This document shows positions 1-22,500 of a DNA stretch of 23,542 nt, piece after piece (position 1 is the stretch's first letter; each line of letters opens with the position of its first letter). The position numbers were made by a program, and so were the translations under genes. The DNA is taken from the IMG/VR virus record IMGVR_UViG_3300021089_000022, positions 1-23,542 of that record; one strand, written 5' to 3'. This DNA is from a virus. The notes beneath the pieces were generated by a model. That model made no database searches. It was not told the DNA's origin and saw only the letters and a list, made by a program, of their open reading frames with translations.

Positions 1-890
1 CAGTGTGCTGTCTCTCTAGTGTCAATTTAGAATACTTTGACGAATGGAAAGACCACCCTGCGTTCATTCCTGATTTAATAAGAATGTTAGACAATGTTCT
101 AACCGAGTTTATTGCTCGAGCTCCAGAACCCCTATATAAAGCTAAATTTTCTGCTATGCGGGAAAGAAGTTTAGGTCTTGGTGCAATGGGATTTCATGCG
201 TTCTTACAAAAGAATAATATTCCTTTTGAAAGTGCACAAGCGACAGGCGCTAATCTAAGGATATTTGCACATATTAAGGAAAACGCCTCAAAAACAACAA
301 GAAAACTTGCAGTAGAAAAAGGCGCTTGCCCTGATGATGATACTTGTACAGTACGAAATGCACATCTTTTGGCTATAGCTCCTAATGCAAGTTCTAGTAT
401 TATATGTGGAAACACAAGTCCTAGTATAGAACCTTTCCGTGCTAATGCTTTTAATCAGAAAACAAAGTCTGGAAGTAATCTTATGAAGAATAAGTTTTTG
501 GAAAACGTATTAGAAAAGTATGAAAGTAATACTGATGAAATATGGAAAAGTATAGTAACACAAAAAGGAAGTGTTCAACATTTAGAGTTCTTAACTGAGT
601 GGGAAAGAAGTGTATTTAAAACAGCAGTTGAAATAAATCAATCATGGATTATAGATCATGCAGCTCATAGACAAGAATATATTTGTCAATCGCAAAGTTT
701 AAACTTATTCTTTCCACCTGATGTAAATAAAGGGGATCTACATAATGTACATATGCTAGCATGGGCGAGAAACTTAAAAACTCTTTATTATTTAAGGAGT
801 GAGGCTATATCCAGAGCGGATGTAGTATCTGATCTAGTAAAAAGAGAAATTTTATTTGAGCAATCAGATTGTTTAGCGTGTGAGGGTTAA
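1..890 (+). CDS. nrdA: Ribonucleoside-diphosphate reductase class Ia, alpha subunit (3' part)
   Basis: Reduces ribonucleoside diphosphates to deoxyribonucleotides in the cytoplasm together with NrdB. The gene is cut by the window edge: the reading frame is open from base 3, and about 295 C-terminal residues are present, well under half of a usual NrdA. Visible landmarks: an opening VCCLSSVNL that aligns with the active-site Cys462 region of E. coli NrdA (ALCTLSAFNL); the conserved loop PNASSSIICGNTSPSIEP; the radical-transfer Tyr pair in NLKTLYYLRS (E. coli Tyr730/731); and a C-terminal CLACEG whose CxxC pair would be the thioredoxin/glutaredoxin-reducible cysteines. The catalytic NxCxE loop lies just off the window. 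The stop (888-890) is followed one base later by nrdB, so the two are co-transcribed. The ending CLACEG is one I associate with phage and proteobacterial NrdA. Family assignment is secure. Confidence 0.96.
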   Translation, partial: VCCLSSVNLEYFDEWKDHPAFIPDLIRMLDNVLTEFIARAPEPLYKAKFSAMRERSLGLGAMGFHAFLQKNNIPFESAQATGANLRIFAHIKENASKTTRKLAVEKGACPDDDTCTVRNAHLLAIAPNASSSIICGNTSPSIEPFRANAFNQKTKSGSNLMKNKFLENVLEKYESNTDEIWKSIVTQKGSVQHLEFLTEWERSVFKTAVEINQSWIIDHAAHRQEYICQSQSLNLFFPPDVNKGDLHNVHMLAWARNLKTLYYLRSEAISRADVVSDLVKREILFEQSDCLACEG

Positions 891-891
891 T

Positions 892-1851
892 ATGGGTTTA
901 CTAACGGAAAGACATTATTATAAACCTTTTAACTATGACTGGGCTTTTCAAGCCTATAAGACGCAACAGCAAATGCATTGGATGCCTGATGAAGTAAATC
1001 TACATGATGATGTTAGAGATTACAGAGAGAAACTTCCAGTAGAAAGTAGACGACTTATAGATAATATATTTAGATTCTTTACTCAAGCTGATGTAGATGT
1101 AGCTAGTGGATATGCTACGCATTTTTTGCCTACATTCAAGCAACCAGAAATAAGAATGATGTTATCCGCTTTTGCAGGAATGGAAGCTGTACATATGGAA
1201 GCCTATGCCTTGTTACTTGATACTCTTGGCAAAGAAGAAGAAATTTACCAAGAATTTATGAAGATTCAAGAAATGGCTGATAAACATGAGTACTTAACTG
1301 ACTTTAATATGGAGAGTCCTCATGAGATAGCTAAAACATTAGCTGTCTATAGTGGTTTCACAGAGGGAGTACAATTGTTTAGTAGTTTTGCAATACTATT
1401 AAATTTCCCTAGACATAACCTTATGAAAGGTATGGGACAAATTATAACTTGGAGTGTACGTGATGAGTCACTTCATGTAGACAGTATGTCAAGATTATTT
1501 AGGACTTTCATTCAAGAAAATCCTGAGATATGGAATGACAAACTGAAGTATGAAATCTATTGTGCTGCAGAAAGAGTAGTAGAGTTAGAAAATAACTTTA
1601 TTGATACTTGCTTTGAAAAAGCTGAGCTACCTGATTTAACTAAAGAAGATGTTAAAGAGTATATCAGATTTATAGCAGGTCGTAGACTACTTGGACTTGG
1701 TATGAAGAATATCTTTCATACAAAAGTTAATCCACTACCATGGATTGATTATCAATTAAACGCAGTTGAGCATACCAACTTTTTTGAAAACCGTGCTACC
1801 GAGTATGCGAAGGCTAGTACACAAGGAAATTGGCAGGATATATTCAAATGA
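892..1851 (+). CDS. nrdB: Ribonucleoside-diphosphate reductase class Ia, beta subunit
   Basis: Complete 319-residue small subunit that carries the di-iron centre and tyrosyl radical used by NrdA. Every metal ligand can be read: Asp67, Glu98 and His101 (in EAVHMEAY), Glu158 (SGFTEG), Glu192 and His195 (RDESLH). Tyr105 sits at the position of the radical Tyr122 of E. coli. The spacings Asp67-Glu98 (31) and Glu158-Glu192 (34) equal those in the E. coli enzyme, so this is a tyrosyl-radical class Ia protein. I chose ATG 892 because GAGGG (882-886) stands just upstream as a ribosome binding site. An upstream in-frame GTG at 880 would overlap nrdA and lacks this support. The 3' end overlaps the next gene in an ATGA junction (1848-1851), so translation is probably coupled. 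Nothing suggests inactivation. Confidence 0.97.
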   Translation: MGLLTERHYYKPFNYDWAFQAYKTQQQMHWMPDEVNLHDDVRDYREKLPVESRRLIDNIFRFFTQADVDVASGYATHFLPTFKQPEIRMMLSAFAGMEAVHMEAYALLLDTLGKEEEIYQEFMKIQEMADKHEYLTDFNMESPHEIAKTLAVYSGFTEGVQLFSSFAILLNFPRHNLMKGMGQIITWSVRDESLHVDSMSRLFRTFIQENPEIWNDKLKYEIYCAAERVVELENNFIDTCFEKAELPDLTKEDVKEYIRFIAGRRLLGLGMKNIFHTKVNPLPWIDYQLNAVEHTNFFENRATEYAKASTQGNWQDIFK

Positions 1852-2105
1852 GTGAAGAACAACAACCAACCCAAAGTCAAATGACAGCAACTGTAACTAT
1901 TGATGGAGTAGTCCATAATATAGACAGTTTAAGCGAACAGCATAGAGTCGTTATGGGGCATGTACAAGTTGCTGACCAAGAAATAGCAAAATTACAAAAT
2001 TTAATTGCTATTCTTACAACAGGCAGACAGGCTTACATTAACGAACTGGGTAAAGAATTAAACGGAACAGATCAAGAATTTACAGACGAAGCATCTGGTG
2101 ATTAG
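1848..2105 (+). CDS. Small DUF6447-like protein
   Basis: An 85-residue acidic protein starting at ATG 1848 inside the ATGA overlap with nrdB. The core, about residues 13-72, reads VTIDG, then a short turn and DSLSEQ, then a predicted long helix containing DQEIAKLQNLIAIL and TGRQAYINELG. This order (TIDG strand, DSLS, D-EI-LQ helix, T-R-AY) matches my memory of the DUF6447 family of small phage and bacterial proteins, whose function is unknown to me. The N-terminus (SEEQQPTQSQ) and the acidic C-terminus look disordered, and no signal or membrane segment is seen. It sits between nrdB and two glycosyltransferase genes and overlaps the next gene in a TAGTG junction. A helical oligomer or adaptor is possible, but nothing here shows a specific role. 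The family call is from memory and unverified. Confidence 0.72.
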   Translation: MSEEQQPTQSQMTATVTIDGVVHNIDSLSEQHRVVMGHVQVADQEIAKLQNLIAILTTGRQAYINELGKELNGTDQEFTDEASGD

Positions 2106-2758
2106 TGAAAATCTTTATAGGATATGAAAGCGCACACCCAGAAATGTACGAAGTGTGCAAAGCTTCTATTGAAAGATTTAATACCTCACACCAGATCCAA
2201 CCTCTAGTAAAAGAAGAACTAATAGAAGCAGGACATTACCGTAGACCCTATCAAGGCGAGTCTACTGAGTTTGCCTTTACCCGTTTTTTAGTACCTTTTC
2301 TATGTAACTATACAGGATATGCTCTCTTTTGTGATGGAGACTTTTTATGGAGGAGCGATCCACAGGAATTAACGCATTTTAAACAGAGTAAACATGATGT
2401 TCATGTCGTTAAACACCCTAACTTAGTTACTAAAAATAAAACTAAAATGGATGGCAAAATAAACAGACCTTATGAAAGAAAATACTGGTCTAGTTTAATG
2501 TATATAAATTGTGCAGGGGCAACCAGATTAACACCAACAAGTGTATCTGCAGCCCCAGCGGGTGATTTGCATGGTTTTTCATGGACAACCAAAGAAATAG
2601 GAAGTCTCCCCGCAAGTTTTAATGCTCTTGTAGGTTACTATAGTTTCCCTAACCCAAAAGCAGTTCATTTCACAGACGGAGGTCCATGGCTTGAAGGCTA
2701 TGAAGATACTCCCTATGCGGATGAATGGAACAATATATGGAAGTTATTAAGACACTAA
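2105..2758 (+). CDS. GT-A glycosyltransferase, GT8-like
   Basis: A 217-residue protein starting at GTG 2105, which shares its G with the stop of the preceding gene (TAGTG). It opens with MKIFIGYESAHPEMYEVCKASI, the beta-strand and helix start of GT-A enzymes. FAFTRFLVP (57-64) and FCDGDFLW (75-82) follow; DGD at 77-79 is the metal- and nucleotide-sugar-binding DxD motif. Near the C-terminus VHFTDGGPW (187-195) resembles the HxxG-type element of GT8 relatives. There is no membrane anchor, so it should act in the cytoplasm, transferring a sugar from an NDP-sugar donor; donor and acceptor cannot be read from the sequence. It is translationally coupled to the GT29-like gene (TAATG), so the two may act in series. 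At 217 residues it is shorter than many GT8 enzymes, but the core motifs are present. The broader GT-A call is surer than GT8. Confidence 0.78.
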   Translation: MKIFIGYESAHPEMYEVCKASIERFNTSHQIQPLVKEELIEAGHYRRPYQGESTEFAFTRFLVPFLCNYTGYALFCDGDFLWRSDPQELTHFKQSKHDVHVVKHPNLVTKNKTKMDGKINRPYERKYWSSLMYINCAGATRLTPTSVSAAPAGDLHGFSWTTKEIGSLPASFNALVGYYSFPNPKAVHFTDGGPWLEGYEDTPYADEWNNIWKLLRH

Positions 2759-3483
2759 TGGATCAATTCTACAACAAAAATATTATCTTAGTAGGCAATT
2801 CGGTAGAAATGTTAAACTATGAACACGGAAAATTTATTGATTCCCATGATGTAATTATTCGTATGGGTAGAGGGATTCCAAACCCCGACGGGTTAGAAGA
2901 TAATATGAAAGCTATTGGTACTAGAACAGACGTATGGTGCACTGGATTCCTAAGAGAGAATATGATCAAAATGCCACATATTAAAACTGTTCCAATTATA
3001 CTACTTAATAGAACACGAATGTATATGAAAACTCCCCGAGAGCCGTATTATTTAAAAGACTTTTATACAATGTTTACAGATAATCAAATTCTTGATATTT
3101 ATGATGAGTTTAAATTTGTGGACACCAGATCAAGAAAAAATACTATTACAGAAAGTGTAAAGGCGGATCTACTTGGAATGAAAAATAAAACTGTACCTAA
3201 TTATGGACGTCCGTCCAACGGTTTTATTACTTTACTTTGGTTAATACGAAAAGCGAATAATTGGAAAAGTTTAACCTTGATAGGATTTGATTTCTTTGCA
3301 AAATACTTTCCAGTTAATGTAGGTCGTGCAAAACCACAAAGTTGGCATTTACCTCACAATAAACATCATGAAACCCCGCATCGTGGAGATATAGAAAGAG
3401 AGTATGCTTTAGAGTTAAAGCAAAAAGGATTGATAAATTGGATTATTCTTTCTGATTTGAAGGAAGAAGTCTTAGAGTTTTAA
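2758..3483 (+). CDS. GT29 sialyltransferase-like glycosyltransferase
   Basis: A 241-residue protein. I start it at ATG 2758, which overlaps the preceding stop (TAATG), like the other junctions of this operon; an earlier in-frame ATG at 2725 lies inside the upstream gene. The N-terminal block NIILVGNSVEML (8-19), IDSHDVIIRMGRG (27-39) and GTRTDVWCTG (54-63) has the layout of the GT29 large sialylmotif. GRPSNGFITLLWLI (150-163) and LTLIGFDFF (172-180) match the small-motif region, and NKHHE (201-205) resembles the His/Glu 'VS' motif. GT29 enzymes transfer from CMP-activated sugars (sialic acid or other nonulosonates). No transmembrane anchor is present, unlike the animal enzymes. Donor and acceptor are unknown, and no CMP-sugar synthetase is seen here. 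Its stop overlaps the convergent coq4 gene by 4 bases. Confidence 0.75.
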   Translation: MDQFYNKNIILVGNSVEMLNYEHGKFIDSHDVIIRMGRGIPNPDGLEDNMKAIGTRTDVWCTGFLRENMIKMPHIKTVPIILLNRTRMYMKTPREPYYLKDFYTMFTDNQILDIYDEFKFVDTRSRKNTITESVKADLLGMKNKTVPNYGRPSNGFITLLWLIRKANNWKSLTLIGFDFFAKYFPVNVGRAKPQSWHLPHNKHHETPHRGDIEREYALELKQKGLINWIILSDLKEEVLEF

Positions 3484-4136
3484 GTACTTTTCCAGTGGTA
3501 TTTAGTTGTCGGAAGGGTGTTGAGATTTTCGCGAACTTTATTGATATCCTCACCTAGAATATTGAACCAATCTGCAAATATATAATTCTTTGACATTTTA
3601 CCCATCTGACGGGCTTCTTTGTACAGAGGTCGACAGGAATACCATTCTCTTATTCCATTAAAGAATATCCGCATTTTTCCAACACGACTGAGAACTTTCC
3701 AACCATTACCCTCAAAATCTTTACCATATTCAATTCTTAATAGCTCTCCTATAGGATCGGGCGGATAACCACTAAGTACATGAGTAAAGTCATGAATATC
3801 TGCAATAAACTTTCGAAAAGCTTCATCTAGTTTAGCATCTTCACTACGCGTAGGAACAAGATCACTCAACTTTCCATAATAGTATTTATTTACAAACTCA
3901 AAGTATTCGCTAGCCAAAGTATTCTCTGTATTTTTATACTGTGAAACATTAGTTATAATACTATCTCCTTTCAAATATCTTTTTCCAGTAGGTGACATAG
4001 ACCAGACGATCATAGTTTTATCGAGTGAGGTTTTATTGAAGTGACGAATAAATATGGCTAGAAAGGCAGTATCGTAATTGCCTGGTTTCATCTGAATAGA
4101 AATTAGCTTTAGAATAAAAGCTAGACTTTTGAACAT
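3480..4136 (-). CDS. coq4: Coq4-family ubiquinone biosynthesis protein
   Basis: A 218-residue protein with the Coq4 signature HDxxHx11E intact: His115, Asp116, His119 and Glu131 within HDFTHVLSGYPPDPIGELL. That motif binds a divalent metal. Surrounding features also fit Coq4: MSPTGKRYL (47-55) near the N-terminus, the GYPPDPIGE turn, a central helix, and a C-terminal LPTTKYHW. Coq4 is needed for ubiquinone synthesis; recent work on the eukaryotic protein links it to oxidative decarboxylation at ring carbon C1. It usually works as a peripheral membrane protein in the Q-synthesis complex. Residues 1-15 (FKSLAFILKLISI) are hydrophobic or amphipathic and could touch the membrane. The alternative start Met16 would remove them. 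It is the last gene of the - strand operon, one base after an 18-residue hydrophobic ORF, and overlaps the convergent GT29-like gene. A Coq4 gene in a phage is unusual. Confidence 0.86.
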   Translation of the reverse strand: MFKSLAFILKLISIQMKPGNYDTAFLAIFIRHFNKTSLDKTMIVWSMSPTGKRYLKGDSIITNVSQYKNTENTLASEYFEFVNKYYYGKLSDLVPTRSEDAKLDEAFRKFIADIHDFTHVLSGYPPDPIGELLRIEYGKDFEGNGWKVLSRVGKMRIFFNGIREWYSCRPLYKEARQMGKMSKNYIFADWFNILGEDINKVRENLNTLPTTKYHWKST

Positions 4137-4137
4137 C

Positions 4138-4194
4138 TTAAAATAACCAAAAGAAAGTTATTAAGTAAAGTATTAAAATTACTAATCCTTCCAT
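4138..4194 (-). CDS. 18-residue hydrophobic micro-ORF
   Basis: What looks like a 57-base gap between the 345-residue protein and coq4 is completely filled by an ORF reading MEGLVILILYLITFFWLF. Its ATG overlaps the upstream stop (TAATG, 4192-4196). Its TAA (4138-4140) lies one base before the coq4 ATG. Both junctions copy the overlap style of the other genes here. After Met-Glu-Gly the peptide is almost wholly Leu, Ile, Phe, Val, Tyr and Trp, enough for one short membrane helix. GGA early in the ORF cannot act for its own start, so translation would depend on coupling from the upstream gene. It could be a membrane micropeptide, or merely a coupling leader that delivers ribosomes to coq4. Very short ORFs occur by chance, and an AT-rich stretch gives hydrophobic codons easily, so confidence is moderate. 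Confidence 0.5.
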   Translation of the reverse strand: MEGLVILILYLITFFWLF

Positions 4195-5231
4195 TATATT
4201 TTACCGAATAGATACCCAGCTTTAGTGACAGATTCAATCATTTTTCTCTGTCTCTCTGCTTTATCTAATAAATTATCACAGATAGCAGCTCCTCTCAGAT
4301 TAAGAGGTATATTGTCTATCTGTTTTGCCCATAGATCCCAAGGCATTGCTAAGAAGTATAAAGTTGGTACGTTCCAATAAGGACTCCAAAGCATAGGCAT
4401 ACTTTTCAATTGAACTGTATACGCTTTCCGTAACATAATATTACAGTTGATTGCGTCTTTTGGTCCGAGAGCTTCCCTTAAAAAGAGTTCATCTACTTTT
4501 CCATTAAAATAAGTTGGAGCCATTCCAACCCCTATATTATAGAATGAAGAAAATAAATCTTTATTAGTTGTAGAAAGAATAAAAGAATCTGGATCATGAT
4601 GCCATGTACCAGCAGACTCCAACTGACGACCAGATGGTGAAACTTTCATACGAGGTTTTATCTTCGGATGACGTGTTGCCCTTCCATTTTTAAAGAAATT
4701 TCTATAATCCAGTTTATCTATTTTATTCCAGTCTAGAAGTATAAGACTAGCATCGTGATCTTTTTCCGTTGCTGGAATATCTAATATATCATAGTAGTTT
4801 TTAAACATAGGATGATCTAAATAAGTCCATTGTTTTCCAAAGTAGGCAATCTTTTCGCCCATTTGTGCAATAGTGGGTAGTTGTCCTTTATCTAGAGTGG
4901 CTTGATTAAATATGCGTGGAGTATGATCCATAACTAAAACTTTTTGCATATCATGAGACTTATGGCTCCAATGGTTTTTTAGTTGTAGTATCATTCTTGA
5001 TTGAGTTTGCGGTCCGTGTCCCTTTGCTAGAGAACCTTTAATTTGCCAAGCACTTTGATAAATATGTACCTCTCTAAAATTAGCTAATGCCCATCTATGG
5101 ACAGGAGTCATTTTATCCCAAGTTTGGGGTGAGGTAAAGAGATGCAGGCGAAAGTTCTCCGCTTTGTCAAGTAGAGACGAAAGTGTGAACATAGTGTTCA
5201 GCTCTTGTGTATTTATTGCTATATCAATCAT
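4194..5231 (-). CDS. Unrecognised 345-residue protein, possibly carbohydrate-related
   Basis: I do not recognise this family. The start is ATG 5231, placed in an ATGA overlap with the upstream gene's stop (5228-5231); an in-frame TTG at 5252 is less likely. The protein looks globular and cytoplasmic, with no signal peptide or clear membrane helix. It begins with a strand-helix unit (IDIAINTQELNTMFTLSSLL), then LRLF-type strand regions and VLVMDHTP. A His/Trp-rich centre contains SAGTWHHDPDSF. The C-terminal third is rich in Trp, Pro and Tyr (MPMLWSPYWNVPTLYFLAMPWDLW) and ends in a basic helix (DNLLDKAERQRKMIESV). The alternating alpha/beta start and its coupling to a GT-B-like gene make a glycosyltransferase or related sugar enzyme plausible, but no catalytic motif can be named. 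Its stop overlaps the 18-residue ORF. Confidence 0.8.
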   Translation of the reverse strand: MIDIAINTQELNTMFTLSSLLDKAENFRLHLFTSPQTWDKMTPVHRWALANFREVHIYQSAWQIKGSLAKGHGPQTQSRMILQLKNHWSHKSHDMQKVLVMDHTPRIFNQATLDKGQLPTIAQMGEKIAYFGKQWTYLDHPMFKNYYDILDIPATEKDHDASLILLDWNKIDKLDYRNFFKNGRATRHPKIKPRMKVSPSGRQLESAGTWHHDPDSFILSTTNKDLFSSFYNIGVGMAPTYFNGKVDELFLREALGPKDAINCNIMLRKAYTVQLKSMPMLWSPYWNVPTLYFLAMPWDLWAKQIDNIPLNLRGAAICDNLLDKAERQRKMIESVTKAGYLFGKI

Positions 5232-6127
5232 GTCGTTAATGTATATTCCCAAAAATTATCTAAGTAGTTTTGTAATCTTTCCTTTGGATCAGGATCAAAA
5301 TTAAATATAATTCCTGATCGCCTACTTGATAGTATCTTTCTTAAAGCAGTTCCTGAACCTTCTTTATGCCCTGCCACTGCTTGATAAATCGCTTCATAAG
5401 TAAGATGGTTTTTTTCTCTTGCTTTTACTGGAATTGCTACTGTTGAAATCTTTTTTCCTAAAAGTAATCCTATTAGTCCCATTTCGCTATTTGGACATAT
5501 AGCCAACTCTTTACAATTCAAAAGTAATTCAAATCCTCCTGCTTTTTTATTTAAAATTTTATCTTCCCCGTATCTCCCTTTCATCTTTGCTATCCAGAGA
5601 TGGGCAGTTATAGGATGAGGCTTAATTACATAGCCATCTTCTACTAAAGCGTCCATCTTTTTCCAATTCATTATATTTTTCTGTATCAAATTGCTTCCTG
5701 GTGGGAAGATAACCTTGTCATAAAATTCTGTGTTCCATTGTAACACATATTTATTCTCTAGGTTTTTGATGATTTTTTCTATTCGATCTTCATCAATTAT
5801 TATTTCTGAATCATCTGCAAGATTGCTCATCAATCTATTATTTATTATTACACTATTTACTCTTATATAAATTGCTTTACTTAAAAAGTCTGTATACAAC
5901 CAAGATCTAACAGTCATATTCTCATTAGTATTATACCAAAGATCATACTCAAAAGGACTTCCTCTGTACTTCTCTGGTATAAGCAAGTGCTTAAACTTAT
6001 TTAGCTCTTGCAGTTGAGACTTAGGTCTCATTGTACTGCCCGACTTCATATAATGAGTAGGTAAATCACCTAATTCTTCATTTATGGAAAGAGCATCTAA
6101 TTTTGCAGCTCTTCCGTTAGCTGCCAT
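5228..6127 (-). CDS. GT-B-like / capsule-polysaccharide-synthesis-like glycosyltransferase
   Basis: A 299-residue protein whose C-terminal half resembles capsule synthesis enzymes of the KpsC/KpsS type and other GT-B folds. DGYVIKPHPITAHLW (164-178) carries the characteristic KPHP motif, and CKELAICPNSEMGLIGLLLGKK (205-226) matches the 'S-x-x-x-x-E-x-x-x-x-G-K' loop that contacts a nucleotide sugar in those families. The N-terminal half (1-130) is not recognisable to me. GAGAAAGAG stands upstream of ATG 6127 as a ribosome binding site, and the start overlaps the upstream gene by 11 bases. The stop overlaps the next gene (ATGA). No signal peptide is seen, so a cytoplasmic role on a lipid-linked glycan or a protein is likely. 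If active it would add a third glycosyltransferase near the Thr-rich fibre. The fold call is inference from two motifs. Confidence 0.65.
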   Translation of the reverse strand: MAANGRAAKLDALSINEELGDLPTHYMKSGSTMRPKSQLQELNKFKHLLIPEKYRGSPFEYDLWYNTNENMTVRSWLYTDFLSKAIYIRVNSVIINNRLMSNLADDSEIIIDEDRIEKIIKNLENKYVLQWNTEFYDKVIFPPGSNLIQKNIMNWKKMDALVEDGYVIKPHPITAHLWIAKMKGRYGEDKILNKKAGGFELLLNCKELAICPNSEMGLIGLLLGKKISTVAIPVKAREKNHLTYEAIYQAVAGHKEGSGTALRKILSSRRSGIIFNFDPDPKERLQNYLDNFWEYTLTT

Positions 6128-6315: not shown

Positions 6316-9219
6316 TTAGTTCCATTTTGAGCCATCCCAGTAAGAAGCATCATAATCTGTAGCGCTTGACACTTCAGTATCATATATAGTTCCTGCTGAA
6401 CTGGCAGTTATTCTTTCAAATATTTGAGTTCCCGTTGCAGTTGCAAAGGTAGTCACATGTCCCGTTAATATCGTAGTATCCGTTGCTCTACTTGTATTAT
6501 AAACTGTTGAAGTTGTTAATGAAGTAGCATAAACCGTACCCGATTCTCTTGTAGTATTAAACGTAGTAGTAGTGGCTTGCGAAGTATTAAACGTCGAAGT
6601 AGTACTCTTACTAGTTGATGTAGCCCTACTACTTGCTGTACTGTGCGTAGTATTATATACTGTATCAGTACTCTTAGTTGTACTAGTAGCTCTGCTACTT
6701 GCTGTACTGTGTGTAGTATTATAGGTCGTAGTAGTACTCTTACTAGTTGCTGTAGCACGACTTGTAAGTGTACCAAGCGTAGTAGCATATACTGTAGTAG
6801 TAGATTTACTTGTTGCAGTCGCTCTACTACTTGCTGTACTATGTGCAGTATTATAGGTCGTAGTAGTACTCTTACTAGTTGCTGTAGCTCTGCTGCTTGC
6901 TGTACTATGTGCAGTATTATAAACCGTAGTGGTACTCCTACTCGTGCTAGTAGCACGACTCGAGATCCTAGAAGTACCGTAAGCGGTTTCATAATTAGTG
7001 CTTCTTGAAGTATTTGTATTCCAAGTTGTAGTTTTACTTGTGTTAGTACTCCACGTTGTAGTTTTACTCGTGTTAGTACTCCATGTTGTAGTTTTACTTG
7101 TATTAGTACTCCATGTGGTAGTATTGCTTGTATTAGTATTATTTGTTTGAGCAGTTGCGTTAGTAAATCCTGTATTCCAAGTTGTAGTTTGACTTGTATT
7201 AGTATTATTTGTTTGAGCAGTTGCGTTAGTAAATCCTGTATTCCAAGTTGTAGTATGACTCGTATTAGTATTCCAAGATGTTGCCGTATTTCTAGAAGTT
7301 GCTGTATTCCATGTGGTTGTCCAGGAAGTGTTAGTATTATTAGTAAATCCTGTAGAATTTGTACCACTATCTGTCCAGGATGTTGCTGTATTCCTACTAG
7401 TACCGTAAGCGGTATTATTAGTCGACCCAGTACTATTAGTAAATCCTGTACTCCACGTTGTGGGATTAGTTCCAGAAGTTGGATTAGTTCCAGAAGTATT
7501 ATGTGAGGAACTCCAACCAGTATTTGTATTCCAAGATGTTGCAGTATTATTAGTCGACCCAGTACTATTAGTACCACTCTGTCCAAAAGACGTAGTTCTG
7601 GTATCCCCTTGTGAAGTACTATTAGTACCACTATCTCCAAAAGTCGTAGTTCTGCTTGAACCTTGAGTAGTATCGTATGCGGTATTATCAGCGTACGCTG
7701 TAGTCCAAGATGTGTTTGTTAGGAAGACTGTAGGTTGCCCTTCTGGTCCCACGAAACTAACCGTTATGTTCGTTCCTGTTGTTGATCTAGAAGTATTAGT
7801 ACTTCTGGTTGTACTCCAAGTGGTATTGTAGGCAGTACTTTGTGAAGTATTCCACGATGTATTAGTATTCCAAGTTGTAGTGTAGGCAGTACTTTGTGAA
7901 GTATTCCATGATGTATTAGTATTCCAAGCAGTATTAGTACTATTAGTTCCGGCAGTACTATTAGTTCCAGTTGTATTATGTGTGGAACTCCAACTAGTAT
8001 TTGTATTCCAAGATGTATTTGTATTTTGTGAAGTATTCCTAGCAGTATTAGTATTCCAAGCAGTGTTTGTACTTCTACTAGAATCATACCCCGTACTGTT
8101 ACTACTTGAGGTAGTCCATGAAGTTGCTGTGTTCCTAGAGGTTGAGGTACTAGCTCCGCCTGCTGGATCTGTGACTTGTGAGGTTGAATTAGTAAATCCC
8201 GTACTATTAGTTTGGGCAGTACTAACTGTATACTGAGTAGTCTGTGAGGTGCTTCTAGTAGTATTCGTATTCCAACTAGTATTTGTAGCAACTACATAAT
8301 CGGTAGTCTGTGAAGTACTCCGTGTAGTATTCGTATTCCAACTCGTATTTGTACTAACTGTGTATTCAGTAGTCTGCGCAGTATTATCTGCATACTGAGT
8401 AGTCTGCGCAGTATTATCTGCATACTGAGTAGTTTGTGCAGTATTATCCGCATACTGAGTAGTTTGTGAGGTTGAATTAGTAAATCCCGTATTTCTACTA
8501 GTTGTTATTGTAGTATCATAACTAGTAGTATAAGTAGTGGTAGTATCATATACTGTGGTAGTTGCATGACTAGTATTATAAGTCGTGGTAGTCGTATATA
8601 AAGTAGTAGTGTCAAATGTAGTAGTCGTTGCATGACTTGTCAGATAAGTAGTAGTAGTGGTATATAAAGTAGTTGTATCCCACGTAGTAGTTGTTGCCTT
8701 ACTTGTATTAAACGTAGTTGTAGTTGTATAAGTAGTAGTGGAATCAAAAGTAGTAGTAGTACTTCTAGTAGTTTCATACTCGGTCGTCGTTGTAAATAAC
8801 GTAGTAGTTGCAAAAGTTGTAGTGGTTGCAAGAGTAGTTTCGTATGCAGTAGTAGTAGTATATAAAGTAGTTGTATTAAATACAGTAGTTGTGTCTCTAG
8901 TAGTTGCCCACGTAGTCGTTGTAGACCTAGTTGTATTAAAAGTAGTTGTGGTATCTCTAGTTGTATCAAATACAGTAGTTGTATCTCTATTTGTATTAAA
9001 TGTCGAAGTTGTGCTGTAAGCAGTTTCTTGAGTTCCTGAAACATAGGTTGTTTCAGTATTTGTTGTTCTAGTAGTTGTATGAACAGCCGAGAACGGCCCC
9101 TCTAAACTACCGCCATCATTTACGTAGACTTCATTGACACGACGAATCGTCCCACTATCATTTATAGCAAGAAATCGTAATGTGCGGAGTGTTCCCCCAT
9201 CATTTACGTAAATTGACAT
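6316..9219 (-). CDS. Giant Thr/Asn/Ser-rich repeat protein, putative tail fibre
   Basis: A 967-residue protein with a clear TAGGAG ribosome binding site before ATG 9219. The N-terminus (1-40) has three copies of a YVNDGGTLR-type motif (IYVNDGGTLR, AINDSGTIR, VYVNDGGSL), which I know from phage structural proteins. Residues 47 to about 925 are almost entirely Thr, Ser, Asn, aromatics and Arg. The first part repeats in 10-12 residue units of the form aromatic-x-T-x-R-x-TTT. The middle uses NTSWNTNTSW- and QTTQYADNTA-type units, and the end uses 22-residue units (STASSRATATSKSTTT). A short non-repetitive insert near residue 490 contains VGPEGQPTVFL. The C-terminus (about 930-967) returns to mixed sequence ending YWDGSKWN. 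N-x-S/T tripeptides occur by the dozen. Cys is absent from the regions I read. Clean stop-free length and adjacency to fibre genes support a real structural protein. A beta-solenoid or extended, possibly glycosylated stalk is inference. Confidence 0.85.
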   Translation of the reverse strand: MSIYVNDGGTLRTLRFLAINDSGTIRRVNEVYVNDGGSLEGPFSAVHTTTRTTNTETTYVSGTQETAYSTTSTFNTNRDTTTVFDTTRDTTTTFNTTRSTTTTWATTRDTTTVFNTTTLYTTTTAYETTLATTTTFATTTLFTTTTEYETTRSTTTTFDSTTTYTTTTTFNTSKATTTTWDTTTLYTTTTTYLTSHATTTTFDTTTLYTTTTTYNTSHATTTVYDTTTTYTTSYDTTITTSRNTGFTNSTSQTTQYADNTAQTTQYADNTAQTTQYADNTAQTTEYTVSTNTSWNTNTTRSTSQTTDYVVATNTSWNTNTTRSTSQTTQYTVSTAQTNSTGFTNSTSQVTDPAGGASTSTSRNTATSWTTSSSNSTGYDSSRSTNTAWNTNTARNTSQNTNTSWNTNTSWSSTHNTTGTNSTAGTNSTNTAWNTNTSWNTSQSTAYTTTWNTNTSWNTSQSTAYNTTWSTTRSTNTSRSTTGTNITVSFVGPEGQPTVFLTNTSWTTAYADNTAYDTTQGSSRTTTFGDSGTNSTSQGDTRTTSFGQSGTNSTGSTNNTATSWNTNTGWSSSHNTSGTNPTSGTNPTTWSTGFTNSTGSTNNTAYGTSRNTATSWTDSGTNSTGFTNNTNTSWTTTWNTATSRNTATSWNTNTSHTTTWNTGFTNATAQTNNTNTSQTTTWNTGFTNATAQTNNTNTSNTTTWSTNTSKTTTWSTNTSKTTTWSTNTSKTTTWNTNTSRSTNYETAYGTSRISSRATSTSRSTTTVYNTAHSTASSRATATSKSTTTTYNTAHSTASSRATATSKSTTTVYATTLGTLTSRATATSKSTTTTYNTTHSTASSRATSTTKSTDTVYNTTHSTASSRATSTSKSTTSTFNTSQATTTTFNTTRESGTVYATSLTTSTVYNTSRATDTTILTGHVTTFATATGTQIFERITASSAGTIYDTEVSSATDYDASYWDGSKWN
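6620..6949 (-). repeat. 66-bp imperfect tandem repeats, about five units
   Basis: These encode 22-residue units of the type NTAHSTASSRATATSKSTTTTY near the C-terminus of the Thr-rich protein. The + strand anchor CTTGCTGTACT recurs at 6632, 6698, 6830 and 6896, exact multiples of 66; the unit between 6698 and 6830 is diverged. The period is a multiple of three, so copy changes keep the frame. Outer limits are approximate. Confidence 0.85.
7021..7140 (-). repeat. 30-bp tandem repeat, four units
   Basis: Four consecutive 30-base units (7021, 7051, 7081, 7111) share the + strand core GTTGTAGTTTTACT with few substitutions; the last unit is the most diverged. They encode the decapeptide TNTSKTTTWS and variants. 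The units are in frame within the Thr-rich protein. Confidence 0.93.
7141..7272 (-). repeat. 66-bp tandem duplication, two units
   Basis: The 66 bases at 7141-7206 recur at 7207-7272 with about two substitutions. They encode 22-residue units containing WNTGFTNATAQTNNTNTS. The near identity points to a recent duplication or gene conversion within the Thr-rich gene. Confidence 0.93.
8371..8460 (-). repeat. 30-bp tandem repeat, three units
   Basis: Units 8371-8400 and 8401-8430 are identical, and 8431-8460 differs at only a few bases. They encode QTTQYADNTA three times. There is no spacer variation, so this is a coding tandem repeat, not a CRISPR array. Confidence 0.95.
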
Positions 9220-15896: not shown

Positions 15897-16529
15897 CTAT
15901 GAAATAATGCATGTGATATCTTTCCAGGTCGCACTCGAGGCTACTAAAGCTTCTGCTTGTGCATATGTCGCAATCAAATCCTTACAATCTATAGTATTAC
16001 CACTTGCATCTAATGAAGTAGGCTTTGATGGGTGATCCCCAGCATCAACATTTATGGAATGGCTAGCGTATGTGGCTTTTAGGGCTGCCATACCCGCATG
16101 TGAGGGTGTGGCTTCTAGTCTTGATTTTATAGTGGTTATATTATAATGTTCCCACAGACCCATTGCTAAAGCAGATATTCCCATACTATACCCTTGTTGT
16201 CTGTGATCGGGGTGTACAGTTAAATTTAATATATTTACTTCCCCCGCTGTAAAAAATCCATAAGTTCTTTGTCCAACAAAAGTTCCATCTGGTTTATACA
16301 TCCCATATACTCTAAAAATTCCATCAATTTTATCTGAAGTTATAGGTAGTGTTCCAACATCATTCACCATTAAAGATTCACTAAATCTAGTTAACCTCTC
16401 TTCGTATGAAATAGGAGTTTCTCCTGGACTTATTGGGTAGTCCCTAAAACTCATCATGAAAGCAGCAGCATCTGCTTCTGTTATAGGTTTATGTACCCAA
16501 CCATTGCTTGCTGTAACTGTTACGCTCAT
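15897..16529 (-). CDS. GNAT-family N-acetyltransferase
   Basis: A 210-residue protein starting at ATG 16529, which overlaps the stop of the tail-tip gene (TAATG). The acetyl-CoA-binding motif A is visible: strand VNILNLTVHPDHRQ (98-111), then R110-Q-Q-G113-Y-S115, the R/QxxGxG/A loop with Ser at the last position, leading into helix ISALAMGLWEHY. FRVYGMYKPDGTFVGQRTYG (72-91) is the preceding hairpin, and the helix at HAGMAALKATY is typical of motif B. GNAT enzymes transfer an acetyl group from acetyl-CoA to an amine; the substrate (host protein, small molecule, or virion protein) cannot be told. The approximately 65 C-terminal residues extend beyond a standard GNAT core. Its place between tail-tip and fibre genes suggests it acts late. 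It is the last gene before the operon's internal promoter. Confidence 0.8.
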   Translation of the reverse strand: MSVTVTASNGWVHKPITEADAAAFMMSFRDYPISPGETPISYEERLTRFSESLMVNDVGTLPITSDKIDGIFRVYGMYKPDGTFVGQRTYGFFTAGEVNILNLTVHPDHRQQGYSMGISALAMGLWEHYNITTIKSRLEATPSHAGMAALKATYASHSINVDAGDHPSKPTSLDASGNTIDCKDLIATYAQAEALVASSATWKDITCIIS

Positions 16530-19500
16530 TAGTATTTACCTCCAACTGTCCAGCCTTTGACAGTCAATAATTCGTTTTCTGTTTCCACATAGATAACTTC
16601 TGTTGATTCGTCTATGTATTCTTTCTTGCCTTGATATTCTTCCGCTAGTATCCATTCTCCCTCAATCAGTATTGGGTGATCATTTGTTATCTCTAACTCA
16701 TCTTCTAATATATAGTATCCTTCTCGTTGTTTCTCTACTATCTTCACTACTTTAGTTTTGCCTACGGGACTGTCTACTTCATCCCCCACTTCTAGTCCTT
16801 CAGGTAGCATAGCAGGAGTAAGACATTTACCACCACCAAAGTTAGCATTTGTTACCTTCGTTGTTATTGCCATTATTTTATTTGAATTACTATGTTGTAC
16901 ATAAATAGTCTTTGTCCCATGAGCAGTAGAGTCAGATCCGAAAGCATTATCAGCACTACCAGAATCTGAGTTGACATCTCCAAATGTCCATGCATTATTA
17001 CCACTTCCAGTTGCTCCACTACCAGTTCCTTCTGGTGAGCCAGATAAACCAAAGTCGCTGACTAAATTTCCATTTCTTGTCCAAGTACATACGATTGAAC
17101 TAGTTCCATAAGTTGGGTGAGTAACAGCCATAGTTACAGAAACTGTTGTTCCACTTGGTACATATATGCCGCTACCGACAAAGGCCCATCCTAAGTCTGC
17201 TGTTCCGACTGTAATCGAAATAGAACCCCATTCCATATCGTCTGCTGTAACACTTCCTGTTATTGTATTTACGGCAGCTGCGTTATCTGCTGTTATGATG
17301 TTAAACATAGGGAAATCTCCCGCATCAAATCTATCGGGGTCTATATCTCCAGTTAAATCACCAGCTGAACCACTAAAGCTTGAGGTTCCTGCTCCTACTG
17401 AACTTCTAAAGGTTGCAGCGGCTTCTGCTACCCATGCACTTCCATTCCATCTTGGAACTTTTCCTGTGCCTGTTCCCACTAAAGCGTCTATGTCTACTCC
17501 AAATCCACCTTTTGTTCTTGGAACTGTTCCACCTAAACTAGCTAAGGAAGGTGCTACTGCTGTTGTACCATCATAGTTAAGTGTTCCATCAGCTTTAGTT
17601 GTTATCTTACTGTTCTTCCAAGTAGTATCTGCCGTAACTCCAGTACCCCCTTTAGTTACTGGAGTTGTACCAGTTATATTAGATAGATTAGGAGCTATTG
17701 CTGTTGTACCATCATAGTTTAAGGAGCCATCGGCTTTAGTAGTTATTTTACTGTTCTTCCAAGTAGTATCTGCTGTAACTCCCGTTCCACCTTTAGTTAC
17801 TGGAGTTGTACCAGTTATATTAGATAGATTAGGAGCTATTGCTGTTGTACCGTCATAGTTTAATGAGCCATCAGCTTTAGTAGTTATTTTACTATTTTTC
17901 CAAGTAGTATCTGCCGTAACTCCCGTTCCACCTTTAGTTACTGGAGTTGTACCAGTTATATTAGATAGATTGGGCGCTACAGCAGTTGTACCATCATAAT
18001 TAAGTGTACCATCAGCTTTAACAGTTACCTGTGAGTTTTTAAGTGTAGTAGGAACAGAGGCAGTAGAATTAGTTCCAGTCCTTGTTAGACTTAGAGTTCC
18101 TTCTGTGAGACTAACTCCTAAATCACTATTTAAAAAGTCAGAGGTTGTAGTAGTACCTGTTCCACCTTTTGCTGTTGGAACTGCTCTACCGACATCTCCA
18201 TTAGCTGCTAGTCCTGCATTAGCTCTTACCGCTCCACTTTTTGTAGTGCCTGCATCTGGTAGAGAGTTTATATTTGGCTGTACTGCTGTAGTACCATCAT
18301 AGTTAAGCGTACCATCAGCTTTAGTTGTTATCTTACTATTCTTCCAAGTAGTATCTGATGTGACTCCAGTTCCTCCAACACTTGCAGGCAAAGTACCTGC
18401 TGATGCAGTTCCTGAAGAAAAAGATATAGCTCCTGTAGCTCCTGACATATCTTCTCCAAATCCACCGTATTCACCAGCTACTACTCGTTTAACATTACCA
18501 CTTCCATCAAATCCAGCTTGTGTTCTTGTATTTGAATCTCTTAGAGTAGCTACAGTAATAGCTGCATTAGCACCATCTTTTAGTCCCTTTATGTTATAGC
18601 CATCTGCATTTAATCCTGCAAAAGCCATTTCTTTTGCGCCTCTCATATCTTCTGCGGATACATTTACACCACCATAAGTGACTCCTAATTTTACATAACC
18701 AGTTGAGGATAATCCAGTATTAGCATAGCCTGCATAAGTTTTAGTAGTACTATAATCCCCAGAGATATTGTCTATATCTATTTCATCTTCATCAAGAACA
18801 ATAGTATCACCAAATCCTGTTACTCTTGGTGTAGGAGTTCCAAAACTAGGCGTTCCTGTATTTCCAGCTGCAGTAGTTTCTGTAACTGCATAAGAGCATT
18901 GATACCAAGTGTTTACACTCGCTCCTACTAAAGCCGGAGGTGAAAGTGTCCAACTGGAAGCATTTCCTCCAGTGAATACCCTAGTGCTAAAGGTATAATT
19001 TGTCATACTAGGAGTAGTGCTGTAGCCTGCTGCTGTTGCATAGAGTACACCCACGACTTCTTTTTTACCTACTGCTCCTGGAGCTCCGTCAGAGCCTTCT
19101 ATTTGTGATGAGGCTCCCCAATCCCATATGAAACCATATGTTCCACTACTTACAGTCCAAGCTGCTACACCTTTTGAAACCCATATTGAATTACTGCCTG
19201 CAGGTACATCTGCTATATTATCATACCATTGACCTCCTGATGAAGGTAAAGCAGCACCATAAGCAGTATCTCCCGGAGTATTAGTAGCTGTATCTCTCCT
19301 AAAAATGAAGTTAACATCACCGTGTGGATATCCTTCAATACTAGGAGTACTCCAAGAAAGGGCATCAGAGGTAGTTCCACCAGAGCTTTCTGTAGCTAGT
19401 GTTTCTGATTGAAGAACCAGAACTCCAACTGCAGCTGCTGGTTTTACTTGTGTCCACCCAGTAGGTAGACTAGCTACTACCTTAGTACTAAAATTATATG

Positions 19501-22500
19501 TTCCTGTGCTTGGCGCACTACCAAGAGTAGTTGTAGTATTATTAAAAGTATGATATTTGTATATTGAAAGTTCTGCTACTTTTCTTCCTACTGCTCCTGC
19601 TGTTCCGTCTGTTCTTTTTGCGTAAACTGCTGGAGTACCCCAAGCAACACTAGCTGCGGTTGCTGTAGAAGCTCCAGTAGCTAAACCTACAGATACATAT
19701 ACTGTGTCACCATCGGCTGAAAGGGCTGGAGGATCTTTAACCCAATTTGTAGGAACAGTCAAAACATTAGTTGTAAAGTTATAACTACCCCCACTATTAC
19801 CAGCACTACTGTTTTTTCTATAAATATATACTTCAGCGTGTGCGGCACCCTCTACTTGGAAAGGTGTAGTCCACGTATAGTTAGTAGCTCCTACTCCTTT
19901 TTCTCCGCGAGAAGCCCATAGTAAATTTGTCCCTGAAGGAGGGCTATCATACCACTGAATATCAGCAGCAGGTACTCCTGCAGAAGCGGTTGGGGTATTT
20001 GGTTTGGTAGCTGCTCTAGCAAAAACTATATTTACAGACGCTCCAGTAGATCCGTCTGTTTTTCTTGCAAAAATAGTTGGGTTTGACCATGAAACAGGTA
20101 CACTTGTATCTGAAGGAGAGCCGCTCACAAGAGCAGTACATGAATATACTGTATCTCCGTTGCTTGATACGCTTGGAGGTGTAGCGTTCCAATCAGTATT
20201 ACCGATTGTAAGAACAGAAGTAGTAAGATTAAAAAATGATTGAGATGTAGTAGGTTTAGTAGGAGATGATCCAGCACTTGCTACAACATCTGAATAAATT
20301 TTTATCTCTGAAACTGCTGTTCCTTCTACTTGAAATACATTACCCCAAACATATGCGGTTCCGCCTGTTGCTACTGTACCTTTTGATGACCATAAAGTCT
20401 CTAAAGGTGTAGTTGGTGGATCGTCATACCATTGAACATTTTGGGAAGGAATATTTAATCCATCGGCTGTTGGTGTATCAGGTTTAGCGGTTTGTCTTCT
20501 AAATACAAAATTAGTGCCTGCTCCTGTAGCTCCATCTGTTTTCCTTGCGTAAATAACTGGATTCCCCCATGTAATAGATATGCTAGTATCTGAGGGGGAT
20601 CCACTTACAAGAGCTGAACAAGAATATACTGTATCTCCGTTGCTTGATACGCCCGGAGGAGTAAGATTCCAGTCTGTATCTCCTAATGTAATAACGGAAG
20701 TAGTTGCATTATATGTAGACGAAGTAGGCTTAGCAGGAGAAGCTCCATTACTTGCTACAACATCTGAATAACATTTTATTTCTGCAACATGAGATCCTTC
20801 TACTTGGAATACAGCACCCCAAGCATACACGGTTCCTCCCGCGGCTACTGTACCCTTAGATGACCATAAAAGGTCTGTTCCACTTGGTGGGTCATCATAC
20901 CATTGGATATCCGCAGAAGGAATATTGAGACCATCAGCCGTTGGAACATTAGGTTTGGTAGCGGCTCTTGCGAATACAAAGTTAGAACCTGCTCCTGTAA
21001 CTCCGTCTGTTCCATCTAAATTCTTATTAAAAGTTTGACTTGATGTATAAGTTTGAGCTCCTTCAATATCTATAGAGTATTCAATCTCTGCTGTTGCTGC
21101 TGAAATAGTATTAGCGACTCCATATACTATAGTTTCAAGAGTAGGTGTTGCAGGATCAGTAATAATATTTGTAGCTGTACCGTGTAGACTATTAGCAGCG
21201 TTAGGGTTAATACCAGTTCCTGAAGCTGTAACTTTAAATTTACCTGTTGTTACACTTCCTGTATGTATAGCTTCTAATAAGTTTCCTCCTTTCCATACTC
21301 TTATCTGTGTTCCAGATCCTGTATAATTTTGGGCATTACTATTATTAGTATCAATAGGTATCGCGTGCGCTTGGTTTGTATTTACTACCGTATACGCATC
21401 GGTTCCTGATTTAATAGCTGCTATAGTTAGTCTATCTGAGGCTACTTCTACTGTGTTATCAGATTCTCCACTATTTTCGGAAACACTTACTGTTATAGTA
21501 GTAGGATTACTAAAGTCATCAATATCCGCGGGAACTTGAAATGTAAAAGTATCTTGATTTGCTCCAGTACCATTTGTATAAGCGGTTTCATAAGTTGTGC
21601 CTGTTGAAGCAGTTCCTGTAAATTTAAACCACGCATCAGTAAAGCCTGCTGAATTTGCTGTTATAGTAATATCTGTGCCCGTACTTGGTGATGGATTTAA
21701 TCCGTCAGTATCATATAAAACAGTATAGTGAGATGATACTATACTTACGTTATTTCCGCCTGCTCCTGCCGCTCCGTCTGCTCCTGTTCCTGCTTTAGTA
21801 AAAGAGATGATTCTAGTACTAATAGTATAATCTCTTTGTAAATCTTTAACTACTATAGTCGCAGTTGCTGAGAACTGATCAGCATCATCTAAAGAATTAT
21901 CATCTATTGTAATTACACCTGATCCAGATATATTTACATCACTAGTTGCATCAAGTCCTGTTACTGCTGTACATGTTAACCCAAAAGTACTTGCTACTGT
22001 TCCACTTGCTGCATATGTAAAAGCTTCTCCATCTCTTTCTACTGTATAAGTATTAGAATATGCTGCATAGTTTGAAGTAGTTACTAAACCATCAGAATCT
22101 GCTGCGAAAGTATGAGATTCATTAGTTCCCTGAACATTATAAGCTCCTTGCCCTTTTGATGTTCCATATTGAGTTAGCTCATAAGTTGAAGCTCCTGTTT
22201 TCGTAACCATTCCTATTATAGTATCATTTTGAAAGTCTACATGGAAAGTGTTTTTACTAAAGGCTTGATTATCTGCGTCTACTATAGTAATGTTTACTGC
22301 TGGGTCTACTATAATTTCCGAATCCGAGGTTAGAGTTCTTACTCTATGATAATGATCAACTGTAGGAGATGTTGTAGTAAACTTAAGTATATTATCGACT
22401 GCTAATTCTGGGTCAAAGTTAGTATTATCCAGTCCTAGTATATGATTAGGAGTGTGAGTTGCAGTGCTAGTCATATTTGGTGTACAAGTAATTGTTCCTG

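Follow-up and report, generated by a model that had tools for sequence, protein, structure and literature searches.

A divergent Coq4-family gene in an uncultivated tailed-phage lineage and its possible role in host quinone chemistry

Few viral genes are known to act on the respiratory quinone pool, and the presence of a gene for a Coq4-like protein in an uncultivated tailed phage raises the question of whether the encoded protein acts on quinones in the infected host or serves a different purpose. The gene is located in a 23,542-base IMG/VR virus record that represents a genome fragment and was analyzed at its full length (hereinafter, the window). The initial annotation described a phage-borne Coq4 homolog with an intact metal-binding motif that would sustain respiration, or change quinone chemistry, in a ubiquinone-using host. 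This interpretation is partly supported by the results presented here and remains a hypothesis that has to be corrected as to the strand, the inference of the host and the necessity of Coq4.

The predicted open reading frame (ORF) occupies exactly the interval originally assigned to it but is encoded on the minus strand (Table 1); the plus-strand frame across the same interval contains 12 stop codons. The motif HDFTHVLSGYPPDPIGE contributes H115, D116, H119 and E131, with 11 residues separating H119 from E131, so that all four residues of the HDxxHx11E signature and their spacing are as initially described. The match to the Pfam Coq4 family (PF05019) is narrow, with a score of 23.7 bits (E = 3.4e-5) against a curated cut-off of 22.9 bits, and aligns residues 46-206 with positions 53-216 of the 221-position profile. 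However, a profile derived from cellular and other phage Coq4 proteins, without the phage group of the window, recognizes the window protein with 79.9 bits (E = 1.7e-23), which indicates that the narrow Pfam score reflects divergence rather than doubtful family membership. The best of 2,000 composition-matched shuffled sequences reached 6.6 bits against this profile, and none of the other window ORFs scored. Searches of PHROGs and NCBIfam with the window protein yielded nothing significant. When the five phage groups described below are aligned with two cellular proteins, 15 positions are invariant, namely, the metal ligands and 11 more; these positions include D113, H115, D116, H119, G123, Y124, G130, E131, G179, R202, L205 and N206.

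Table 1. Coordinates of the coq4-like gene, its neighbors and other loci discussed in the text (window positions unless a contig is named)
Feature	Location	Strand	Basis
coq4-like gene, 218 aa, Coq4 family (PF05019)	3480..4136	minus	ORF, Pfam, profile, fold
metal motif HDxxH-x11-E, codons H115, D116, H119, E131	3744..3794	minus	sequence; ligand roles from 6e12 (PMC9774615)
nrdA, C-terminal part, ribonucleotide reductase large subunit	3..890	plus	viral context
nrdB, ribonucleotide reductase small subunit	880..1851	plus	viral context
217-aa gene (PHROG 28018), DGDFLWR pattern like GT8-type nucleotide-sugar transferases	2105..2758	plus	inference from sequence
GT29-like (sialyltransferase family) gene	2725..3483	plus	PF00777, 27.8 bits vs 23
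352-aa gene, just upstream of coq4	4194..5252	minus	ORF
299-aa gene (PHROG 26179), HP..../CPNSE pattern recalling GT-B glycosyltransferases	5228..6127	minus	inference from sequence
967-aa repeat protein	6316..9219	minus	
2330-aa fiber-like protein	16529..23521	minus	
Group B coq4, 21 T4-like contigs, up to 128 kb (L132, L136-L155, L157)	e.g. L136:7980-8708		
Group C coq4	L156		
Group D coq4	L158 (360 kb):7941-8636; L159 (90 kb)		
Group E coq4, 46-kb phage contig, beside lysozyme-like gene	L133:4133-4816		
Coq4-family gene, Sphingobium plasmid pF2	L013:3854-4651		
Metabolic gene set of a sister phage of L007	L094:1-9300		

Structure prediction agrees with this family assignment. The AlphaFold2 model of the window protein, obtained with 35 aligned sequences, is almost all-helical (pLDDT 86, pTM 0.82). 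A Foldseek search of the PDB with this model retrieved 6e12 (E = 6.6e-6, TM-score about 0.7) and 3msq (E = 1.2e-3), with all remaining matches no better than E = 0.7; thus, the only credible matches of the predicted structure are the two crystal structures of Coq4-family proteins. A search of the BFVD viral structures with the window protein gave no match. The AlphaFold2 alignment contains cellular Coq4 proteins, and therefore, the agreement of the folds lends support without being evidence separate from the sequence comparisons. The proteins with solved structures, Alr8543 (6e12) and Npun02000094 (3msq), share the fold and the HDxxHx11E motif with the window protein but are cellular, cyanobacterial proteins with only 14-18% identity to it. 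In 6e12, the equivalent residues H120, D121, H124 and E136 have been reported as ligands of two Mg2+ ions (PMC9774615).

The genomic context of the gene is viral. The window encodes ribonucleotide reductase subunits, a relative of L-shaped-tail-fiber-assembly proteins, and large repeat-containing and fiber-like ORFs, and contains no tRNA, no Rfam RNA and no host-type housekeeping gene, in agreement with the initial description of a phage setting devoid of host genes. The window-type coq4 is present in ten other viral contigs, with 55-100% identity, which brings this lineage (group A) to 11 contigs; three of these are 100% identical, L005 and L007 (C-terminal part) show 67% and 70% identity, respectively, and searches with the neighboring genes added sister contigs at 67% (L180/L165) and 55% (L181/L166 and two more) as well as a partial one. 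The shared gene order consists of the 299-aa gene, the 352-aa gene and coq4, followed by the convergent GT29-like gene, the GT8-like gene, a DUF6447 gene, nrdB and nrdA. All contigs of the lineage in which this spot is covered contain coq4, in the same gene order. Because the order is identical in independent, divergent contigs, chimeric assembly at this locus is excluded. Comparison of the coq4 genes of the window and L005 (dN 0.21, dS 0.81, dN/dS about 0.26) indicates purifying selection which, together with the shared gene order, implies that this phage lineage stably maintains coq4. None of the phage Coq4 copies seen, whether from the other groups or at only 55% identity to the window protein, has lost any of the metal ligands. 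Thus, sequence comparison and modeling jointly confirm that the window gene encodes a genuine, conserved, phage-borne member of the Coq4 family with the metal motif and the predicted fold.

The immediate neighbors of coq4 are mostly glycosyltransferase-like, with the qualification that, among these, only the GT29 match passes the curated cut-off, the other glycosyltransferase-like assignments being made by eye. The GT29-like gene and coq4 overlap by 4 bases at their 3' ends. On the other side, the 352-aa gene is separated from coq4 by 57 bases in the window, and in the sister contigs checked, the start codon of coq4 overlaps the stop codon of this gene (TAATG). A low-confidence model (pLDDT 36) suggests a Rossmann-like N-terminus for the 352-aa protein, which has no relative in deposited phages. 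In the sister contigs, the same neighborhood continues to genes interpreted here as encoding an RNase H-like protein, a gp46/gp47-like nuclease (gp46 identified by similarity), an acyl carrier protein (identified with Pfam) and DNA polymerase A.

The window lineage is not the only group of phages that carry Coq4. A scan with a mixed alignment detected two unrelated viral Coq4 contigs, and a follow-up yielded 24 loci. Altogether, viral Coq4 genes were identified in 36 contigs and in five gene settings, those of group A and of four further groups (B to E), so that the original notion of a Coq4 carried by a phage, while true, was an understatement. The Pfam scores of groups B to E (61-86 bits) are above that of the window copy. 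In group B, all contigs that include the flanks have coq4 between the tail sheath gene and the large terminase gene, and T4-like cyanophages encode the nearest terminases (about 55% identity); the coq4 genes of this group (60-73% identity) are far more variable than the flanking structural genes (81-96%). In the jumbo-phage contig of group D, the Coq4 gene directly follows a glycosyltransferase-like gene, and a radical-SAM-like gene is found nearby. The further neighbors of coq4 in L133 encode 2OG-Fe-oxygenase-like, ThyX-like and DNA-ligase-like proteins.

In the phylogenetic tree, groups B, C and D form a single clade (support 100/99) that is nested among proteins of Caulobacterales and Sphingomonadales, and the Coq4 of L133 is the sister of a protein from a marine gammaproteobacterial metagenome-assembled genome (MAG), L022 (100/100). 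Judging from these placements, the origin from host genes is clear for L133, which is a recent capture, and for groups B to D. Group A is very divergent and stands alone on a stem of more than 5 changes per site; an attempt to place the window copy inside a cellular clade failed on account of this long branch. In topology tests, joining group A with groups B to D gave AU p-values of 0.46 and 0.38, so that this relationship is neither shown nor rejected. Because it is not rejected, the minimum number of captures of Coq4 by phages supported by the tree is two, with three being probable.

A tblastn search with three types of viral Coq4 against 50,697 deposited phage genomes gave no match, and in a literature search with most subscription journals and all preprints outside its scope, Coq4 was nowhere reported as a viral or auxiliary metabolic gene. 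Viral contigs have been reported to carry two other genes of the quinone pathway, ubiG and ubiE (PMC9301287, PMC8226683); like the phage coq4, these are quinone-pathway homologs but, unlike Coq4, they belong to methyltransferase families. The recurrence of Coq4 in several phage groups suggests that phages may alter the quinone or prenyl-lipid chemistry of their hosts more often than is currently known.

Among the cellular homologs, the mitochondrial Coq4 carries out one of the steps by which the respiratory carrier ubiquinone is synthesized. Human COQ4 is a C1 oxidative decarboxylase that removes the carboxyl group and adds a hydroxyl in one step (reviewed in PMC11495197). The eukaryotic COQ4 proteins, oxidative decarboxylases of coenzyme Q precursors, have the Pfam family and the HDxxHx11E motif in common with the window protein, from which they are otherwise divergent. 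A genome scan for Coq4 yielded 80 loci, mainly from Alphaproteobacteria, with some from Gammaproteobacteria, Burkholderiales and Myxococcota. The bacterial proteins from Alphaproteobacteria and their relatives show up to 32% identity to the window protein over part of its length and share the invariant residues, but their motif usually reads GYxRDxxGE, in contrast to GYPPxPxGE in the window group, which branches alone. Coq4 was detected in 34 of the 385 sampled alphaproteobacterial genomes (about 91% are without it), with up to six matches per genome, and PF05019 had no match in the control genomes of E. coli and Caulobacter. In bacteria, decarboxylation and hydroxylation at C1 are performed by UbiD together with monooxygenases, or by UbiN; some proteobacteria that make ubiquinone lack UbiD (PMC10626278). 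Hence the initial statement that Coq4 is needed for ubiquinone synthesis applies to eukaryotes (PMC11495197) but does not extend to bacteria in general. UbiD-family matches were found in 169 of the 385 alphaproteobacterial genomes, that is, in 11 of the 34 with Coq4 versus 158 of the 351 without it, a difference that is not significant (Fisher p = 0.20); the mutual exclusion that a replacement of UbiD by Coq4 would predict is thus not clearly seen.

Several features of the bacterial family point away from a uniform role. On the Sphingobium plasmid pF2, a Coq4-family gene belongs to an apparent catabolic operon, among genes for a cytochrome P450, a 2Fe-2S ferredoxin, a nitronate monooxygenase and acyl-CoA dehydrogenases. 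Quinone genes do not adjoin coq4 at the chromosomal cellular loci examined, and some paralogs in sphingomonads and related bacteria (L043, L053, L058, L070 and others) have lost the HDxxHx11E motif but retain the rest of the protein. Given the multiple copies, the motif-less paralogs, the catabolic-operon copy and the lack of quinone neighbors, the bacterial Coq4 family probably has further roles outside ubiquinone synthesis. The phage finding also exposes a large, uncharacterized bacterial Coq4 family. An alphaproteobacterial-type Coq4 also occurs on a contig labeled as a Klebsiella pneumoniae MAG (L024), which is probably mislabeled or derives from a contaminated bin.

The identity of the host bears on the same question. 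The initial annotation took the gene to imply a ubiquinone-using, proteobacterial host. Cyanobacteria use plastoquinone, and the Coq4 family is nevertheless represented in Synechococcus elongatus and in Nostoc, the source of both solved structures of the family; Coq4 alone, therefore, does not imply ubiquinone, and the host inference does not follow. The closest relatives of the window nrdA (62-65% identity) and nrdB (about 54%) are those of Pelagibacter phages, which weakly favors a proteobacterial host. Furthermore, three Alphaproteobacteria with a genome size of 1.4 Mb carry Coq4, in surroundings of 30-34% GC. Taken together, the relatives of the ribonucleotide reductase and these three genomes fit, but do not prove, a marine alphaproteobacterium as the host.

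By analogy with human COQ4, we tentatively propose, as the leading explanation but with a confidence that falls somewhat short of even, that the window Coq4 catalyzes C1 oxidative decarboxylation of prenylated hydroxybenzoate in the host. Under this scenario, the phage protein would be located on the host inner membrane, as homology suggests, and would hold a divalent metal with H115, D116, H119 and E131; its helical pocket would bind the prenylated aromatic acid, the presumed substrate, and the C1 carboxyl would be exchanged for a hydroxyl in a single oxidative step, as reported for the human enzyme. One phage gene would then take over the tasks that UbiD/UbiX together with a monooxygenase, or UbiN, perform as decarboxylase and C1 hydroxylase, and ubiquinone supply and respiration would presumably be maintained during infection. 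Because the bacterial C1 step is carried out by other enzymes and UbiD is not universal, the phage Coq4 could provide a one-gene bypass; and the stronger Coq4 matches in other phages, including the L133 protein with its gammaproteobacterial sister, fit an activity that is of use during infection. COQ7 and UbiE were sought in 14 viral records, most of them fragments, and none was found. Against the quinone role count this lack of other quinone genes in the viral records searched and the fixed neighbors of the window coq4, which are glycosyltransferase-like rather than respiratory, as well as the multiplicity, motif loss, catabolic-operon copy and non-quinone neighborhoods of the bacterial Coq4s, the lack of a clear exclusion between Coq4 and UbiD, and the divergence of group A. 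If the proposal is correct, a two-step bypass by one repeatedly gained phage gene would offer a handle on phage-maintained membrane energization.

A serious alternative, which we regard as somewhat less likely than the quinone role, is that the metalloenzyme fold acts on another prenyl or acyl lipid, such as a prenyl-phosphate-linked or aromatic intermediate of the adjacent glycosyltransferase-like genes, in surface glycan remodeling or virion modification, with no involvement of quinones. The fixed order with the 299-aa, 352-aa, GT29-like and GT8-like genes in all sisters, including the start-stop overlap with the 352-aa gene, is readily accommodated by such a role, as are the position of the jumbo-phage coq4 after a glycosyltransferase-like gene, the multicopy bacterial paralogs with one in a catabolic operon, and the ligands of the Nostoc homolog, of which an earlier model was described with bound geranylgeranyl monophosphate and the current one with oleic acid (PMC9774615). 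However, the T4-like coq4 genes between terminase and tail sheath have no glycosyltransferase-like neighbors; glycosyltransferase genes are common beside tail-fiber genes, so that the link may be positional; and GT29 alone among these assignments is above a curated threshold. A composite of both roles, in which a Coq4-fold enzyme of the window lineage would belong to a dedicated module with the glycosyltransferase-like genes and act on a non-quinone prenyl-linked substrate, and other phages would have taken Coq4 independently for quinone chemistry, seems unlikely; if true, it would imply a new activity for the Coq4 fold and a new phage system for lipid or glycan modification.

Less likely still is that the phage protein acts as a non-catalytic scaffold, tuning or blocking quinone synthesis in the host by binding to the enzymes of this pathway or to prenyl lipids. 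Coq4 was long viewed as an organizer of the yeast CoQ complex (PMC11495197), and many bacteria do not need it; yet the metal ligands never vary among the phage copies, which points to catalysis and renders a scaffold role less probable. An artifact (contamination with host DNA or misassembly) or a passenger gene in decay might be suspected from a Pfam score barely over the cut-off in a fragmentary record, but an artifact or decay of this kind is exceedingly improbable in view of the ten additional contigs with a single gene order where covered, the purifying selection, and the specific profile and fold matches; contamination and chimerism are ruled out by the synteny in divergent contigs.

Some other genes of these phages deserve mention. 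The large metabolic cargo of the sister phage of L007 comprises genes for a sulfotransferase, an asparagine synthase with a glutamine amidotransferase domain, a methyltransferase-like protein and an acyl carrier protein. The 967-aa protein of the window consists almost entirely of Thr/Asn/Ser repeats (NTSWNT-like units) and is conserved in the sister phages, near the tail-fiber region. The C-terminal portion of about 100 aa of the 2330-aa fiber-like protein shows similarity to Hint domains (Pfam Vint, E = 0.006, below the cut-off) and could possibly be a self-processing end of a phage fiber protein.
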